DNA of 64,000 nucleotides from Cellulomonas cellasea. GTDB taxonomy: Bacteria > Actinomycetota > Actinomycetes > Actinomycetales > Cellulomonadaceae. The position numbers and the translations under genes are program-made. Shown piece by piece: positions 13,095-28,580 of the stretch (its first letter is position 1; every line of letters starts with the position of its first letter). Location of the stretch: the NCBI RefSeq assembly GCF_006538745.1, contig NZ_BJLR01000028.1, positions 1 to 64,000 on the forward strand, in the 5' to 3' direction. The notes under the pieces are model-generated. The model was not told the origin of the DNA. It was given only the letters and a program-made list of their open reading frames with translations, and did no database searches.

Positions 13095-16000
13095 ATGTCT
13101 GCAGGGAGAGAACCAACGACGCCGACCTGGCGGCACCGAGCCCGCCCCCAGGGCCGCGTCCTCGTCGCGCTCGTCGTCCTCGCGGCGCTGCTCGCCTACG
13201 TCCTCCAGGCGGCCGTCGCGCCGCGGGCGGACGCCGCGACCGTCGGGGCCGGGAGCTACGCCGAGGGCACGCCGACGGGCGGAGCGGTCCCGACGGAGTG
13301 CAACGGCACGCCCGTCACGAACCCCCGGGCGCACGTGACCAGCAACTTCCCGGCGGGCGCCGTCCCGACGAACGACTGGTGGACGTCGCTGCTGTGGCGG
13401 AAGTTCGACTGCGCGTCGATCTCCGAGAACCTCATGGCGCACCCCCTCGCGTTCCACGCGTACACCGACGGCCTCGGGGTCAGCTACCCGACGACGGCCA
13501 GCATCTCGGGGACCGCGACCGGTGTCGGGGAGTACCACTACACCTACACCGAGGACTTCCGCCTCGGCATCGCGGGCCTGAGCTCCGACGGCAAGGTCGA
13601 CGGCTACTCCGACTGGACCGTGAGCGAGCTGTGGACCAACGGCAGCAGCAGCCTGCGCACGACGTTCGGGCACGGCCTGCCGTTCGTGTACGCCACGAAG
13701 ACCGGCGGGAACGCGACGCTCACCGGCAAGGCCGTCCCGACCGTGTGGAGCAACGGAGGCGGCGCGGTCGGATACACGATCAACGGGCACGACTACGCCG
13801 CGTTCGGCCCGTCGGGCTCGACGTGGACCGTCTCGGGCAGCACCCTGAGCTCCTCGCTCAACGGCGGCTCGTTCTTCTCGGTCGCGGTGCTGCCCACGTC
13901 GTCGGGCAGCTCGAACGCCGACCGCGTCGCCGCGCTCAACGCCTACGCGCCCTACGCGCACAACCACGTGACCGGCACCAAGGTCTCGTGGTCGTACGAC
14001 GAGGCGAGCGCCCGGATGACCGCGACCTACGCGTTCACCACGACGGCGCGCCAGGGCTCGGGGACCGGCACGGTCTACGCGCTCTACCCGCACCAGCGCG
14101 ACCAGCTCAGCGGCGCCACGCCGAGCGCGTACTCCTACGTCTCGCCGCGCGGCCCGATGCGCGTCGTGATCGGCAGCTCGCAGTTCCAGACCGTCGCCAC
14201 GTTCAACGGCGTGCTGCCGCAGCTCGCGAACACGGGCTTCCCGGCCGGCTCCGCCGACGCGACGCAGCTCAACGGGTACATCGAGCAGGTCGCGACGAGC
14301 GACCCGTTCGCGGGCTTCGGCGACGACACGTACTGGACCGGCAAGGCGTTCGGCCGGATTTCGCAGGTCGCGCACATGGCGAACCTCACCGGCAACACCG
14401 CCGCGCGGGACCGCCTCGTGAGCTCGATGAAGACCCGGCTGACCGACTGGATGACGGCGTCGCCCGGCGAGACGACGCGCTCGTTCTGGTACAACCCCGC
14501 GTGGGGCACGCTGATCGGCTACCCCGCGTCCTACGGCTCGGACACCGACCTCAACGACCACCACTTCCACTACGGCTACTACGTCGTGGGGGCCGCGACC
14601 GTCGCGCAGTTCGACCCGGCGTGGGCCGCGGAGTCCGCCTACGGAGGCATGGTCAACACGGTCATCAAGGACGCGGCGAACTGGGACCGCAGCGACACCC
14701 GCTTCCCGTTCCTGCGCGACTTCGACATCTACGCGGGCCACGACTGGGCGGCCGGCCACGGCGCGTTCGGGGCGGGCAACAACCAGGAGTCGTCGTCGGA
14801 GGGCATGAACTTCGCGAGCGGGCTCATCCAGTGGGGCCAGGTGACCGGCAACAAGGCGGTCCGCGACCTCGGGATCTACCTGTACACGACCCAGGCGTCG
14901 GCCATCGAGAACTACTGGTTCGACACCGACGACGAGGCGTTCCCGGCCGCGTTCGGCCACTCGACGGTCGGCATGGTGTGGGGCGACGGCGGCTCGTACT
15001 CGACGTGGTTCAGCGCCGAGCCCGAGATGATCCAGGGCATCAACCTGCTGCCCAGCACCGCGGGCCACCTGTACCTCGGGTACGACCCGGCGTACATCAC
15101 CCGCAACATCGCCGAGCTCGAACGCAACAACGGCGGGCCGGCGACGGTGTGGAAGGACATCATCTGGGAGTTCCAGGCCCTGGCCGACGCGCCGACCGCG
15201 CTCTCCCAGTTCCGCGCCCAGGCGAGCTCCTACGCCGTCGAGGAGGGCGAGTCGAAGGCCCACACCTTCTACTGGCTCAAGAACCTCGCCGGCCTCGGGA
15301 CGGTCGACCGCTCGGTCACGGCCAACACCCCGCTGCACGCGGTGTTCGTCAAGAACGGGGTGCGGACCTACCAGGCGGCCAACATGAGCGGCAGCCCGAT
15401 CACGGTGCGGTTCTCCAACGGCGTGACGCTCAACGTCCCGGCCCGCTCGGTGACGGCGTCCACGACGTCGGCGCCGACCGACACCACGGCGCCGTCCGTG
15501 CCGGCGGGCCTCACGGCCTCGGGCACGACGTCGAGCGCGACGACGCTCTCCTGGAGCGCGTCGAACGACGGCCCGGGCGGCACGGGCGTCGCGAGCTACG
15601 AGGTGCTGCGCGGCGGCTCGGTCGTCGGCACGGCGACCGGGACGACGTACACGGCGACCGGCCTGTCCCCCGCGACGGCGTACAGCTTCACGGTGCGCGC
15701 GGTCGACGGCGCCGGGAACCGCTCGGCGTCGAGCAGCGCGGTGTCGGTGACGACGTCCTCGTCCTCGACGGGCGGCGACACCACCGCGCCGTCGGTGCCC
15801 TCGGGCCTCGGGGCCTCGGGGACCACCGCCTCGACCACGACGCTCTCGTGGAACGCCTCGACCGACGCCGTGGGCGTCACGGGGTACGACGTGCTGCGGG
15901 GCGGCACGGTGATCGGCTCGACCGCGAGCCGGACGTTCACCGTGACGGGCCTGTCCCCCGCGACCGCGTACTCGTTCACGGTCCGGGCCTACGACGCGGC

Positions 16001-16472
16001 GGGCAACCGGTCCGCCGCGAGCGCCGCGGTCGCCGTGACCACGTCGCCGTCGACGAGCACCGGCGTCGACGCGACGTCCCGCATCCAGGCCGAGGCCTAC
16101 AGCGGGATGGTCGGCGTGCAGAAGGAGGCGACGCAGGACGTCGACGGCGGGGAGAACATCGCCTGGATCGCCAACGGCGACTACGTCCGCTTCGACAACG
16201 TCAACTTCGGCACGACGCCGCGCGGCACGTTCAGCGCGCGGGTCGCCTCGGGCGCGGGCGGGTCGGTCAGCGGCCTCGTCAACGTCCGCCTCGGCAGCCG
16301 CACGGCCCCGCCGATCGGCAGCTTCGCAGTCGGCAACACCGGCGGCTGGCAGTCGTGGCGCACGATCCCGGCCAACATCCAGGCCACGACGGGCGTCCAC
16401 ACCGTGTACCTGACGTTCGACTCCGGCCAGCCGGCCGACTTCCTCAACGTCAACTGGTTCACGTTCAGCTAG
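13095..16472 (+). CDS. secreted GH81 endo-1,3-beta-glucanase with Fn3 and CBM6-like modules
   Basis: 1125-residue secreted enzyme predicted to cleave beta-1,3-glucan (laminarin, fungal or yeast cell wall). Signal peptide about residues 1-47, ending in PRADAA. The GH81 catalytic region spans about 55-790 and contains the family hallmarks DHHFHYGYY, YAGHDWAAGHG and NNQESSSEGMN (about residues 560-570), whose acidic residues are the catalytic candidates. Two fibronectin type III modules follow (about 796-890 and 896-985, each beginning DTTAPSVP), then a C-terminal CBM6-like beta-sandwich (about 996-1125, RIQAEAYSGM ... GDYVRFDNVNFG). The ATG follows GGGAGA. Transcription ends at a 15-bp hairpin. 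A LacI regulator is convergent downstream. Confidence 0.95.
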   Translation: MSAGREPTTPTWRHRARPQGRVLVALVVLAALLAYVLQAAVAPRADAATVGAGSYAEGTPTGGAVPTECNGTPVTNPRAHVTSNFPAGAVPTNDWWTSLLWRKFDCASISENLMAHPLAFHAYTDGLGVSYPTTASISGTATGVGEYHYTYTEDFRLGIAGLSSDGKVDGYSDWTVSELWTNGSSSLRTTFGHGLPFVYATKTGGNATLTGKAVPTVWSNGGGAVGYTINGHDYAAFGPSGSTWTVSGSTLSSSLNGGSFFSVAVLPTSSGSSNADRVAALNAYAPYAHNHVTGTKVSWSYDEASARMTATYAFTTTARQGSGTGTVYALYPHQRDQLSGATPSAYSYVSPRGPMRVVIGSSQFQTVATFNGVLPQLANTGFPAGSADATQLNGYIEQVATSDPFAGFGDDTYWTGKAFGRISQVAHMANLTGNTAARDRLVSSMKTRLTDWMTASPGETTRSFWYNPAWGTLIGYPASYGSDTDLNDHHFHYGYYVVGAATVAQFDPAWAAESAYGGMVNTVIKDAANWDRSDTRFPFLRDFDIYAGHDWAAGHGAFGAGNNQESSSEGMNFASGLIQWGQVTGNKAVRDLGIYLYTTQASAIENYWFDTDDEAFPAAFGHSTVGMVWGDGGSYSTWFSAEPEMIQGINLLPSTAGHLYLGYDPAYITRNIAELERNNGGPATVWKDIIWEFQALADAPTALSQFRAQASSYAVEEGESKAHTFYWLKNLAGLGTVDRSVTANTPLHAVFVKNGVRTYQAANMSGSPITVRFSNGVTLNVPARSVTASTTSAPTDTTAPSVPAGLTASGTTSSATTLSWSASNDGPGGTGVASYEVLRGGSVVGTATGTTYTATGLSPATAYSFTVRAVDGAGNRSASSSAVSVTTSSSSTGGDTTAPSVPSGLGASGTTASTTTLSWNASTDAVGVTGYDVLRGGTVIGSTASRTFTVTGLSPATAYSFTVRAYDAAGNRSAASAAVAVTTSPSTSTGVDATSRIQAEAYSGMVGVQKEATQDVDGGENIAWIANGDYVRFDNVNFGTTPRGTFSARVASGAGGSVSGLVNVRLGSRTAPPIGSFAVGNTGGWQSWRTIPANIQATTGVHTVYLTFDSGQPADFLNVNWFTFS

Positions 16473-23896: not shown

Positions 23897-24127
23897 CTCC
23901 GGCTCCGTCCGTGGCGGGTGCGCACCGCGCGTCCCGCGGGCGGCCCGGGGTGCGCGGGCGGCTCACCGTACCGACCCCGGCGGCGCACGACGACGCACGG
24001 GGCGGGAGGCACCGTTCGGACGGCCCGTCCGTCGACGCCACACCTGGGGCGCCGCGACAAACCGGGACGCACCGGGCGGACCGCACCTTCGGGCGGTGCC
24101 TCGCCACGACCCGGGCGCTCCCTCACA

Positions 24128-25768
24128 ATGGGCCGGGTGAACCCGACCTCCGGGGTCTCGACCGCGACAGGGGCGCCGGCCCGCCCGTTCGGGGTGCTCG
24201 TGGTCGGCACGCGCAACGTGTGCCGCTCACCCGCCGCCGAGCGGCTGCTGCGCGCCCGCCTCGGGGAGCACGGTGACGTCACGGTCCTCAGCGCGGGGAC
24301 CGACGCGACGCCCGACGGCGAGCTGCCCGGTCCCCTCGTCGGGCACCTGGGCTCCGCGGGCGTGGAGACCGACGAGCACGCGGCGCGCGACCTCGACCCG
24401 GAGCTCGTGCGGTCGGCCGACGTCGTGCTCACGGTGACGCGCGAGGAGCGGGCCGCCGTGGTGCGGACGGTGCCCTCGGCGATCCGGCGCACGTTCACGC
24501 TGCGCGAGCTCGCCCGGGTCGCGCGTGCGCTCGGCCCCGAGTCCCTCCCCGAGGGCGACGTCGCCGAGCGCCTGTCCGCGCTCGTCGACGCGGCCGCCCG
24601 GCACCGCACGCCGGCGACACCCCGGGCGACGGTCGACGACGACCTGCTCGACCCCTACGGCCGCGACGAGGACACGTACGCGACCGCGTTCGACCAGGTG
24701 CTCGCGGCCGTCGAGGGCATCGCGCGGACCGTGCGACCGGAGCTCGCGGCGGACGGGCCGGACCCGGGGGACGACGAGCCCCCGGTCGCCGCCGTGCGCG
24801 CCCGGCGCAGCGTCCTGCGGACCGTCGTGCTGGTCGCGCTCGCCTCGCTGCTGCTCCTCGTGGTCGCCGGCACCACCGGGGCGCTCGTGGCCGTCGACCG
24901 CCTCGACAGCCGGGTCCAGCGGTTCCCGGACCCGTTCGTGGACCTCCCGACCCGCCCGCCCGAGCCCACCGCGCCGGCGGCCGGCTCCGCGACGGACCCG
25001 GCGCTGACGATCCTCGTGCTCGGCGCGAGCGAGGACGACGCGGACGACGGCGAGGCCGGGACGGACGTCGTGCTGCTCGCGCACGTCACCGCGGACCGCC
25101 GCTCCGCCCAGGTCGTCGCGCTCCCGCCGGAGCTCCGGGTCGAGCTCCCCGGGGCGGGCCCGGGTCCGCTGCGCACCGCGGTCGCGGTCGGCGGGCCACC
25201 CGGCGCGGTGCAGGCCGTCGAGCAGCTCACCGGTGTCCGCGTCGACCACGTCGCGCTGACCGACGCCGAGACCTTCGCAAGGGTCACCGAGACGCTCGGC
25301 GGCGTCGACCTCGATGTCGCGGACGACGTCGTGGTCCGCGGCCGGGTCGTCGTCCCGGCGGGTCGGCACCGCCTGACGGGCGGGCTCGCGCTCACGTGGA
25401 TGCAGTCGACCGGTGACGACGACGCCGCGCGGGCCGAGCGCGGGCAGCTCTGGTTGCGCGCGATCCTCGACCGCATGGGCCACGACGACGTCCGGAGCGA
25501 CCCGACGGCATGGCTCGAGCTGCTCGACGTCCTCTCCGGGTCGGTCGCGGTCGACGAGGGCCTGGACCGCGGCGCGATGCTCGGCCTGCTGACGAGCCTG
25601 CGCACGCTGCGGCCCGGCGACGTCCAGGTGGTGACCGCGCCGACCACGAGCGGCACGGCGCCGGACGGGTCCGCGACCGTCGTCCCGGACCCGGGACCGT
25701 TCGGGGCGCTGATGGACGCGCTGCGCGCCGACACGTTGCGGGAGCACCTCGCCTCAGCGCCGCGCTGA
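24128..25768 (+). CDS. LMW-PTP-like domain fused to a membrane-anchored LCP-like domain
   Basis: 546-residue predicted membrane protein with an unusual architecture. Residues about 20-215 resemble low-molecular-weight protein tyrosine phosphatases: the P-loop region is VVGTRNVCRSPAAERLL, and a general-acid-type DLLDPYGRDED lies near residue 172. One membrane span follows (about 229-258). An extracytoplasmic domain resembling LytR-CpsA-Psr follows (about 290-450, ending in the D..R..R..Q helix region DDDAARAERGQLWL). The position of the catalytic Cys (C-x4-C-R-S) is Gly27; Cys32-Arg33-Ser34 remain. The usual Arg residues of LCP enzymes are also replaced (ALPPELRV, WMQST). Both halves may be enzymatically inactive. 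ATG at 24128 is chosen because the phosphatase fold begins just after it. Confidence 0.82.
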   Translation: MGRVNPTSGVSTATGAPARPFGVLVVGTRNVCRSPAAERLLRARLGEHGDVTVLSAGTDATPDGELPGPLVGHLGSAGVETDEHAARDLDPELVRSADVVLTVTREERAAVVRTVPSAIRRTFTLRELARVARALGPESLPEGDVAERLSALVDAAARHRTPATPRATVDDDLLDPYGRDEDTYATAFDQVLAAVEGIARTVRPELAADGPDPGDDEPPVAAVRARRSVLRTVVLVALASLLLLVVAGTTGALVAVDRLDSRVQRFPDPFVDLPTRPPEPTAPAAGSATDPALTILVLGASEDDADDGEAGTDVVLLAHVTADRRSAQVVALPPELRVELPGAGPGPLRTAVAVGGPPGAVQAVEQLTGVRVDHVALTDAETFARVTETLGGVDLDVADDVVVRGRVVVPAGRHRLTGGLALTWMQSTGDDDAARAERGQLWLRAILDRMGHDDVRSDPTAWLELLDVLSGSVAVDEGLDRGAMLGLLTSLRTLRPGDVQVVTAPTTSGTAPDGSATVVPDPGPFGALMDALRADTLREHLASAPR

Positions 25769-25990: not shown

Positions 25991-27094
25991 ATGACGCTGG
26001 CCGTCGCCGCACCCCAGCAGGTCGCCGCCCGGCGCCTGTCGACCCTCGACCGGTGGCTGCCCGCCTGGATCGGCCTCGCGATGGTCGTCGGCCTCGCGCT
26101 CGGCCGGTTCGTCCCCGCCTTGGCCGAGGGTCTCGCTCGCCTCGAGGTCGGCGGGATCTCGCTGCCGATCGGCCTCGGGCTGCTGGTGATGATGTACCCG
26201 GTCCTGGCGAAGGTCCGCTACGACCGCCTCACCGCCGTGACCGGTGACACGCGCCTCCTGGTCAGCTCGCTCGTCCTCAACTGGCTCGTCGGGCCCGCGC
26301 TGATGTTCGCCCTCGCCTGGGTGTTCCTGCCCGACCTGCCGGAGTACCGCACCGGGCTGATCGTCGTCGGCCTCGCCCGCTGCATCGCGATGGTCGTCAT
26401 CTGGAACGACCTCGCGTGCGGGGACCGCGAGGCCGCCGCGGTGCTCGTCGCGATCAACTCGCTCTTCCAGGTCGTCGCGTTCTCGCTGCTCGGCTGGTTC
26501 TACCTCACCGTCCTCCCGTCCTGGCTCGGGCTCGACACCCAGGGCCTGGACGTCTCGGTGGGACAGATCGCGGTCAACGTGCTGGTCTTCCTCGGCGTCC
26601 CGCTCGCCGCCGGGTTCGCCTCCGGCTGGATCGGCGAGCGCACGAAGGGCCGCGACTGGTACGAGTCGGCGTTCGTCCCGCGGATCGGGCCGTGGGCGCT
26701 GTACGGGCTGCTGTTCACGATCGTGCTGCTCTTCGCCCTGCAGGGCGACGCCGTGACCCGCAACCCGCTCGACGTCGCGCGCATCGCGCTGCCCCTGCTG
26801 GTCTACTTCGCGGTCATGTGGGGCGTCGGCCTCGCCGCCGGCAAGGGCCTGGGCCTCGGGTACGCCCGCTCGACGACGCTCGCGTTCACCGCGGCCGGCA
26901 ACAACTTCGAGCTCGCGATCGCCGTCGCGATCGGCACCTTCGGCGCCACGTCCGGTCAGGCGCTGGCCGGGGTCGTCGGACCGCTCATCGAGGTGCCCGT
27001 CCTTGTCGGCCTCGTGTACGTGTCGCTGTGGGCGGCGCGCCGCTGGTTCGCCACCGACCCCACCGCCCCGGCCCCGCGAGAGGTCCGCGCATGA
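25991..27094 (+). CDS. acr3: ACR3-family arsenite efflux permease
   Basis: 367-residue inner-membrane transporter with about ten spans that exports arsenite (and possibly antimonite). Family signatures include WIGLAMVVGLALGRFVP at the N-terminus, LARCIAMVVIWNDLACGD (with the conserved Cys), WALYGLLFTIVLLFALQG and FTAAGNNFELAIAVAIG. It is the first gene of an ars operon and overlaps the ArsR/ArsC fusion gene by four bases (ATGA). Regulation is expected from the palindrome at 25863-25876. Confidence 0.95.
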   Translation: MTLAVAAPQQVAARRLSTLDRWLPAWIGLAMVVGLALGRFVPALAEGLARLEVGGISLPIGLGLLVMMYPVLAKVRYDRLTAVTGDTRLLVSSLVLNWLVGPALMFALAWVFLPDLPEYRTGLIVVGLARCIAMVVIWNDLACGDREAAAVLVAINSLFQVVAFSLLGWFYLTVLPSWLGLDTQGLDVSVGQIAVNVLVFLGVPLAAGFASGWIGERTKGRDWYESAFVPRIGPWALYGLLFTIVLLFALQGDAVTRNPLDVARIALPLLVYFAVMWGVGLAAGKGLGLGYARSTTLAFTAAGNNFELAIAVAIGTFGATSGQALAGVVGPLIEVPVLVGLVYVSLWAARRWFATDPTAPAPREVRA

Positions 27095-28116
27095 GCGCGC
27101 TGTCCCCCGCGGCCCCCGCCACCGGCGCGGACTGCACGCCCACGGCCTCCCCCGACGCGCACGCCATGGGCGCCGAGGCCGCCGCACAGGTCGCGACCGT
27201 GCTCAAGGCGCTGGCCGACCCGCTGCGGCTGCGCATGCTGTCGTTCGTCACCACGAGCTCCGCCGGTGAGGCGTGCGTGTGCGACATCGCGACGGTCGCC
27301 GACGTCTCGCAACCCACGGTCTCCCACCACCTCAAGGTCCTCAAGGACGTCGGGGTCCTGACGTCCGAGCGGCGCGGCACGTGGGTCTGGTACCGGGTCG
27401 CCCCCGGGGTCAAGGGCGCCGTGTCCGCGCTGCTCGAGTCCTTCGCCCCGGCCGCCCTGGACGCCGCGCACCGCCGCGAGCAGCCCCTCGCCGGGCTGGA
27501 GGACGTCGACGCGACCCTGGTCCGCGTCGCCGACCGGCTCGCCGCCCGGCACGCCGACCTGGCCCCGGAGCTCGTGCTGCGCACCGTGCGCGAGTCGTAC
27601 GCCGCCCTCGCCCGCGGCGCCGGCATCAACGCCCACCTCGTCCCGACCGCCGAGCGGTTCGCCGACCAGCGCCTCGCGGACATCGCCCGGACCACCACCC
27701 CGGCCGCGGCGCCCGTGCCGCAGGTGCTGTTCGTGTGCGTCGCCAACGCGGGCCGCTCGCAGCTCGCCGCGGCGCTGCTGCAGCACCACGCCGGTGACGC
27801 GGTCATCGCCCGCTCCGCCGGGTCCGCCCCCGCCGGCGCGGTGCACGCCGCGGTCCGCCCGCTGCTCGCCGAGCTCGGGGCGAACGCGGACACGGTCTTC
27901 CCGAAGCCGCTCACCGACGACGCGGTCCGCGCCGCCGACGTCGTCGTCACGATGGGCTGCGGGGACACCTGCCCGATCCTGCCCGGCACGCGGTACGAGG
28001 AGTGGGTCGTCGGCGACCCCGCCCTGGCCTCCCCGGAGGGTGTCGCCGCGATCCGCGACGACATCGACGCCCGCGTGCGTGCCCTGCTGACCGACCTCCT
28101 GCCCACCACACCCTGA
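27091..28116 (+). CDS. ArsR repressor - helical linker - ArsC arsenate reductase fusion
   Basis: 341-residue fusion. Residues about 30-115 are an ArsR winged helix with the arsenite-sensing type motif EACVCDIATV and recognition helix SQPTVSHHLKVLKDVG. Residues about 125-200 form the three-helix domain often found in front of actinobacterial arsenate reductases (LVRVADRLAARHADLAPELV). Residues about 210-341 are an LMW-phosphatase-type arsenate reductase with intact P-loop VLFVCVANAGRSQ and downstream TMGCGDTCPILPG. One polypeptide can thus both sense arsenite and reduce arsenate. ATG overlaps the ACR3 stop. No frameshift separates the parts, so the fusion is genuine in this sequence. Confidence 0.93.
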   Translation: MSALSPAAPATGADCTPTASPDAHAMGAEAAAQVATVLKALADPLRLRMLSFVTTSSAGEACVCDIATVADVSQPTVSHHLKVLKDVGVLTSERRGTWVWYRVAPGVKGAVSALLESFAPAALDAAHRREQPLAGLEDVDATLVRVADRLAARHADLAPELVLRTVRESYAALARGAGINAHLVPTAERFADQRLADIARTTTPAAAPVPQVLFVCVANAGRSQLAAALLQHHAGDAVIARSAGSAPAGAVHAAVRPLLAELGANADTVFPKPLTDDAVRAADVVVTMGCGDTCPILPGTRYEEWVVGDPALASPEGVAAIRDDIDARVRALLTDLLPTTP

Positions 28117-28127
28117 GGAGCACCACG

Positions 28128-28580
28128 ATGACCGAGACCACCACCGCCGAGCAGACCCCCACCGGGACCGACCGGCCGAGCGTGCTGTTCGTCTGCGTCC
28201 ACAACGCCGGCCGCTCCCAGATGGCCGCCGGGTTCCTCACCGCGCTCTCGGGTGGGGCCGTCGAGGTCCGCTCCGCCGGCTCCGCCCCCGCCGACCGGAT
28301 CAACCCCGCCGCGGTCGAGGCGATGCTCGAGCTCGGCATCGACATCCGCGCCGAGCAGCCCAAGATCCTCACCACGGACGCGGTCAAGGCCTCTGACGTC
28401 GTCATCACCATGGGCTGCGGCGACACCTGCCCGTTCTTCCCCGGCAAGCGCTACGAGGACTGGGTCCTGGAGGACCCGGCCGGCCAGGGCGTCGAGGCCG
28501 TCCGCCCGATCCGCGACGAGATCCGCGCCCGCATCGTGACCCTGCTCGGCGAGCTGGGCGTGGAGCCCGTCGACGCCTGA
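28128..28580 (+). CDS. arsC: arsenate reductase (LMW-PTP type)
   Basis: 150-residue arsenate reductase, the second ArsC copy in the operon. The P-loop is VLFVCVHNAGRSQMAAGFL with catalytic Cys and CX5R; TMGCGDTCPFFPGKRYEDW and LEDPAGQ follow. Residues match those of actinobacterial thioredoxin- or mycothiol-linked ArsC. ATG at 28128 follows GAGGAG and starts 11 bases after the fusion gene. It ends before a bidirectional terminator. Confidence 0.95.
   Translation: MTETTTAEQTPTGTDRPSVLFVCVHNAGRSQMAAGFLTALSGGAVEVRSAGSAPADRINPAAVEAMLELGIDIRAEQPKILTTDAVKASDVVITMGCGDTCPFFPGKRYEDWVLEDPAGQGVEAVRPIRDEIRARIVTLLGELGVEPVDA

Follow-up and report, generated by a model that had tools for sequence, protein, structure and literature searches.

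We report that a single gene of Cellulomonas cellasea encodes, in one open reading frame, an LMW tyrosine phosphatase (LMW-PTP) domain followed by a membrane span and an LCP domain, and that the active sites of both domains are degenerate. The gene lies in a 64,000-nucleotide stretch of contig NZ_BJLR01000028.1 (positions 1 to 64,000), called the window below. The sequence comparisons show it to be a fusion between an LMW tyrosine phosphatase of the exopolysaccharide (EPS)-cluster type and an LCP glycopolymer ligase. Our preferred reading, to which we assign a probability of roughly 45%, is that the protein is a transmembrane double pseudoenzyme that would act as a non-catalytic regulator or scaffold of an EPS kinase/phosphatase/ligase system. 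Excerpts of PMC12220298 describe how capsule chain length is set by BY-kinase phosphorylation together with a PTP and how LCP proteins attach the polymer to peptidoglycan, a role in capsule attachment that the same excerpts call well established only for Staphylococcus and Streptococcus. How Gram-positive bacteria coordinate polysaccharide polymerization with attachment to the wall outside the cell is an open question, and the fusion could serve as a single gene with which to test the coupling of the two.

The reading frame is uninterrupted from 24128 to 25768 (+ strand, as are all features of this gene given below) and yields 546 residues when counted from the ATG at 24128. The initial annotation had proposed two domains joined by one span, and several models agree: LMWPc (PF01451) is matched over residues 23-127 with 64.1 bits against a cut-off of 23.2, LytR_cpsA_psr (PF03816) over residues 312-450 with 68.7 bits against a cut-off of 24.6 (Pfam), and the LCP domain model TIGR00350 with 69.1 against 62.3 (NCBIfam). 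Among PDB chains, phmmer matched the protein to TagT (E 1e-12) and to YwlE (E 9e-9). An AlphaFold2 model, built from an input alignment of 61 sequences, reached a mean pLDDT of 89.2, with residues 219-228 as the only run of at least three consecutive residues below 50 and an average of 54 over residues 1-10; its pTM of 0.60 is modest, and the relative placement of the PTP and LCP halves in the model is not to be trusted. In a Foldseek search, the top match was the LCP structure of A. oris LcpA (5v8c, E 8e-18), and the PTP half matched YwlE, Wzb and MPtpA, with TM-scores to target of 0.80-0.88 for YwlE and Wzb.

From these results the LMW-PTP-like domain spans about residues 21-207 (24188..24748) and the LCP-like domain about residues 290-540 (24995..25747). 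The helix predicted between the two halves (residues 229-262) contains the membrane span, at about residues 229-252 (24812..24883), which is preceded by the basic stretch VRARRSVLR. Under the positive-inside rule this stretch would point to an N-in/C-out topology, and we infer a cytoplasmic phosphatase-like and an extracytoplasmic LCP-like half.

The protein is probably slightly shorter than the longest frame suggests. In an alignment with homologs, their ATG or GTG start falls on a GTG of the window copy (24137..24139), and a conserved CACAAT-like element extends into the ATG at 24128, so that the product probably starts at GTG 24137 and has 543 residues, not 546. The element itself, CACAAT (24124..24129), stands shortly 5' of the aligned start codon, resembles a -10 element and may have a promoter role; it recurs in the upstream DNA of 6 of 15 homologs, and the rest have CACACT- or CAGA-like variants. 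The mRNA of the fusion is perhaps leaderless. In one fusion clade, all nine members (L024, L026, L029, L031-L036) carry a second conserved block, [CT]ATAGCG, further upstream.

The phosphatase half has lost its nucleophile. Its P-loop reads VGTRNVCRS (G27-T-R-N-V-C-R-S34, 24206..24229), as the initial annotation had it, with Gly27 where the catalytic Cys is expected, and an alignment of 15 fusion proteins has Gly in place of this Cys in every one. The fusion protein lacks the CX5R(S/T) loop of catalytic LMW-PTPs (PF01451) and has their fold, their profile match and the Asp of their DP motif, a general-acid-type residue (D175-P176, 24650..24655) that is kept in 14 of 15 fusions. The Asn and Ser of the P-loop persist in all 15, and its Arg in 10, the other five having Pro (four) or Asp (one); the window protein itself retains Arg33, Asn30, Ser34 and Asp175. 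A nucleophile relocated to Cys32 is ruled out as a feature of the family, since this second Cys is present in just 6/15 fusions.

The separate relatives are intact at these positions. All 35 distinct PTP matches with a readable P-loop read CX5RS, a 36th being a fragment without that region; the separate PTP and LCP relatives considered here are the best search matches and do not cover all PTPs and LCPs of the family. When the fusions were compared with 28 active rows (the divergent PTP rows L056 and L052 having been dropped), 30 positions of the N half were conserved in both groups, including R121-T-F-T124, E127 and A129-R130, 10 were lost and 9 newly fixed. The N half looks like a phosphatase stripped mainly of its chemistry. 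We also considered derivation from the neighboring arsC-like genes and judge it unlikely: ArsC models give the N-domain only 15.6 and 17.3 bits (cut-offs 174.3 and 215), which places it outside the thioredoxin-type ArsC proteins, and separate EPS-type PTPs are 44-53% identical to it. The phosphotyrosine phosphatase model PRK11391 gives it 40.4 bits, also below that model's cut-off.

The C half looks to have been rebuilt more than the N half. Aligned with TagT, the window protein has S301 (25028..25030) at the position of D82, and the GxDxR motif is gone; Ser, Thr or Ala replaces this Asp in 15/15 fusions. G311-T312-D313 (25058..25066) takes the place of R-S/T-D, the Arg (TagT R95 equivalent) being missing and the Asp (D97 equivalent, D313) kept throughout the 15. 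The catalytic P-R-D loop has become P333-P334-E335 (25124..25132), within LPPE in the window protein and PP[D/E] in every fusion, so that Pro334 or its counterpart occupies the TagT R118 position and residue 335 is always Asp or Glu. The YVRxR segment is replaced by W424-MQS-T428 (25397..25411); its first Arg survives in 10/15 fusions and its second, equivalent to TagT R219, in none. Both segments read as initially annotated, PPE and WMQST. The R219 position is ambiguous under MAFFT with active LCPs, which places another residue there, and the loss of this Arg is read from the TagT alignment and from the YxRxR pattern, missing in 15/15 fusions. R435 and R438 are each retained in 14/15.

The protein has the profile match and fold of PF03816 and lacks its set of catalytic Args and metal-site Asps. 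Separate LCP relatives have GxDxR and PRD in 22/22 and a YxRxR-type pattern in 20. Compared with the 22 active rows, 44 positions of the C half are conserved in both groups, 37 lost and 31 newly fixed, and this half is 35-42% identical to the separate LCPs; the identities for both halves come from an alignment that used 25 PTP and 21 LCP rows of the 30 + 22 separate rows in the trees. What the lost Args do in active LCP proteins has been described: excerpts of a review (PMC7831098) cover the roles of TagT R118 and R219 and of the Cps2A phosphate-contact Args, and according to excerpts of PMC6381275 A. oris LcpA needs both R149 (the PRD Arg) and R266, since R149A and R266A each abolish glycosylation. 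R149A abolishes pyrophosphatase activity as well, and R128A leaves glycosylation unimpaired (same excerpts of PMC6381275). We take the correspondence of LcpA R266 with TagT R219 from these papers and from the present alignment.

The full-length fusion was found in 15 of 221 genomes of the family, spread over three genera (g1 2, g2 2, g4 11), and most of the family can do without it. No further match at E<=1e-58 came from 394 sampled genomes of the class, and the one named relative in a related-locus search of genome contigs was L052, a Cellulosimicrobium PTP. One genome (G014) carries two fusion copies with equal scores on contigs C6 and C41; its estimated contamination is 9%, and the second copy is probably an assembly duplicate.

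The frame is open in all 15 genomes, whose fusions are 51-86% identical to the window copy. In both trees, one for the N half (45 rows) and one for the C half (37 rows), a 100/100 branch splits off the 15 fusions, with stems of 0.42 and 0.83 changes per column, respectively; the bootstrap of the N tree is not fully settled, and the C tree holds three rows of unusual composition (two are fusions, one is the window copy's closest relative). Since both active sites are dead in the 15 fusions and intact in their separate relatives, their loss belongs, as far as seen, to the fusion clade. Nei-Gojobori dN/dS for seven pairs, calculated by region, ranged from 0.09 to 0.47 (maximum in the pair L029-L036), with dS values that are rough owing to high GC. 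Between G000 and G005 the fusion gives 0.21 in the N half and 0.20 in the C half, against 0.16 for the intact separate PTP of the same two genomes, which served as a yardstick; pairs among the fusions with Pro in the P-loop give 0.16-0.22 in the N half. These ratios indicate that the gene is under purifying selection. The initial annotation had taken the protein for a pseudoenzyme and not for a copy that had simply decayed, and this distinction holds: none of the 15 fusions has an intact CX5R or intact LCP Args, and with losses shared by 15 fusions and dN/dS at these values, decay of a single copy is rejected.

A connection to polysaccharide export, which the initial annotation had invoked, is indirectly supported by the neighborhoods of relatives and by co-occurrence with PTPs. 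A separate PTP with an intact CTGN[IV]CRS is present in 15/15 fusion genomes, and a PTP match at E<=1e-18 was found in 119/206 genomes without the fusion (Fisher one-sided p 0.0004, uncorrected for kinship and genome size). Broken down by genus, the counts are 2/2 fusion genomes versus 0/5 others in g1, 11/11 versus 45/70 in g4 (p 0.012) and 2/2 versus 11/17 in g2 (p 0.46, not significant); a stricter threshold chosen post hoc (PTP E<=1e-40, genera g1-g4 only) gives 15/15 versus 46/94 (p 7e-5). The converse fails, most genomes that carry a PTP having no fusion.

Within stretches of 6 to 20 kb around the separate PTP, a BY-kinase homolog was found in 8/15 fusion genomes and a DUF4012 homolog in 11/15, so that the DUF4012 protein may belong to the EPS system as a component not yet studied. 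The search found no BY-kinase homolog near the PTP in the other seven; three to four of these are short contigs, on which such an absence carries little meaning, and G068, G038 and G008 had no kinase match in about 20 kb around the PTP. The genome that the window comes from has its separate intact PTP at C36:113666, and a Wzz plus AAA_31 protein, a bacterial sugar transferase and a DUF4012 gene are all found no more than about 7 kb from it. The DUF4012 gene of contig C36 (L103:6681-8519, - strand) has the BY-kinase-like gene on one side and the separate PTP on the other.

The fusion gene lies 25-88 kb from the separate PTP on one contig in G038, G051, G070 and G108, all of one nine-member fusion clade, more than 1 Mb from it in G005 and G043, and on a different contig in nine genomes. 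The window copy is flanked by a 5'-nucleotidase/CorA pair and an arsenic-type set, with no EPS cluster there. Gene contexts from a crude gene caller, which missed the fusion itself in 2/14 contexts, and Pfam spot checks revealed no neighbor common to the fusions across genera. Neighbors are shared at closer range: four upstream genes between G005 and the window, two families between the two g2 genomes and several among four close g4 genomes. One neighbor of the G038 fusion is a family 2 glycosyltransferase.

How the two halves may have come together is suggested by a search of 396 sampled genomes of the order at E<=1e-55, which gave two further full-length alignments, in G249 and G447 of another family. 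Here, ptp and lcp are separate genes in that order and in the same frame, parted by a single stop codon with two codons between it and the following ATG (L053, L054, also L071, L072); these are the only two tandem matches at E<=1e-62 among 24 genomes of G249's family. Gene order, frame and domains are those of the fusion. Unlike the fusion, the pair makes two polypeptides with intact catalytic residues, namely CTGN[VI]CRSP and DPY in the phosphatase and GSDSR, RTD, PRD and YTRQR in the LCP protein, and a gene of BY-kinase type lies nearby: in G249 a Wzz plus AAA_31 protein adjoins the pair, and in G447 it lies one gene further off. Nine genomes have separate PTP and LCP genes of these subfamilies side by side, arranged in tandem (2), convergently or divergently; the PTP match of one of them (G179) is partial. 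In G021 (L038 / L075), an EPS-type LCP gene is flanked on both sides by intact PTP genes.

A tandem ptp-lcp pair with a single stop codon is a plausible pre-fusion state. The trees do not group G249 and G447 as sisters of the fusions, and the pair is therefore a model of the ancestral state, not a demonstrated ancestor. The fusion likely arose by loss of the single stop that separated a ptp gene from the lcp gene behind it, accompanied by loss of catalysis in both halves. Intact adjacent genes, an intact tandem one stop apart and a fused dead protein could then be read as a natural series leading from a catalytic pair to a regulator.

The regulator or scaffold that we favor would work on both sides of the membrane. 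In the cytoplasm, the pseudo-phosphatase would retain a Wzb-type protein-binding face and would either bind the BY-kinase or something around it, or act as a competitor of the active PTP; outside, the tethered pseudo-LCP domain would bind the polymer itself, the lipid that carries it or an active LCP protein at the export site. As a result, polymerization and wall attachment might be coupled or restrained without phosphate chemistry. The docking partners of both halves are our proposal. In a more tentative extension, the dead phosphatase inside and the dead LCP domain outside would mechanically couple the length cycle of BY-kinase and phosphatase to polymer release or wall attachment, in which case the protein would represent a new class, a non-catalytic governor of the active set. 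With its long stem (0.83) and 31 newly fixed positions, the C half may instead have gained a new ligand or activity.

Other explanations were weighed against this reading. An envelope sensor, in which the pseudo-LCP domain would sense a wall polymer or a lipid-linked intermediate, with the cytoplasmic domain relaying the signal to a partner not necessarily of the EPS system, fits the single-span layout, the constraint on both halves and the lack of EPS genes beside the window copy. We consider it unlikely, as no transduction element was seen in the fusion protein and the 15/15 co-occurrence with an intact EPS-type phosphatase favors an EPS link over a non-EPS partner. The mechanism given in the initial annotation, here taken to mean that the dead P-loop captures a phosphotyrosine protein in the manner of a substrate trap, the LCP pocket holds a polyprenyl-PP-glycopolymer and the protein physically links the two, now appears quite unlikely. 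Some Cys-less PTPs can bind phosphotyrosine, the P-loop Arg persists in 10/15 fusions, and the window protein, which has Arg33, Asn30, Ser34 and Asp175, may still do so; as a conserved function such binding is improbable, the Arg, which would contact the phosphate, being gone in 5/15 (Pro 4, Asp 1) and the Pro pairs nevertheless showing the low N-half ratios given above. Binding of a polyprenyl-linked glycopolymer is weakened by the loss of the R118 and R219 equivalents, which belong to the LCP substrate site, in 15/15 fusions.

That the LCP-like half is an enzyme with altered chemistry or substrate, for which the dead PTP would be only an anchor or adaptor, seems distinctly improbable: the equivalents of R149 and R266, essential in LcpA according to the excerpts of PMC6381275, are missing from all 15 fusions, and this counts against what the invariant D313 and Asp/Glu335, the nearly invariant R435 and R438 and the newly fixed C-domain positions might otherwise suggest. 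A gene decaying without function would account for the loss of both active sites and for the patchy spread (15/221), and is hardly credible in view of 15 open frames at 51-86% identity, the range of dN/dS, the newly fixed residues and the confidently predicted fold.

Both domains are well known, and their joined, doubly inactive form was not found described among the matches listed in the open-licence literature; the same matches described neither a bacterial LMW-PTP pseudophosphatase linked to an LCP domain nor an LCP pseudoenzyme. Compared with the Wzb-type LMW-PTP of its own genome (PF01451, C36:113666), an actinobacterial PTP of EPS-cluster type, the fusion has the same fold, the RTFT..E.AR region and the DP motif, and differs in the Cys-to-Gly change (15/15), the membrane tether and the missing P-loop Arg (5/15). 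With TagT and A. oris LcpA (PF03816) it shares the fold, a single span before the domain and the D97-equivalent Asp; it differs from them in being without the GxDxR Asp, the RSD Arg, the PRD Arg and the second Arg of YVRxR, and in the phosphatase-like domain that precedes the span. Pseudophosphatases are known from other settings: STYX is a eukaryotic one, and some that lack the Cys bind phosphotyrosine. The idea of a non-catalytic regulator of phosphatase signaling, which STYX-like proteins embody, is reminiscent of the role proposed here. The same idea is found in Streptococcus suis, where excerpts of PMC10148854 describe CcpS as a non-catalytic protein that controls and inhibits the capsule phosphatase CpsB. 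In this likeness, drawn by description, the fusion alone has a transmembrane coupling to an LCP-like domain.

Two further features of the window were recorded. The arsenic-type set next to the fusion (25991-28580) consists of a PF01758 (SBF-fold) transporter, followed by a protein with ArsR-type HTH, Phosphatase-like_N and LMWPc domains and then by a second LMWPc/ArsC-like gene; with the fusion, three PF01451-type proteins are encoded within about 4.4 kb. Elsewhere, at 13095-16469, the window encodes a protein with a GH81 C-terminal domain, fn3 and CBM6, likely an endo-beta-1,3-glucanase.
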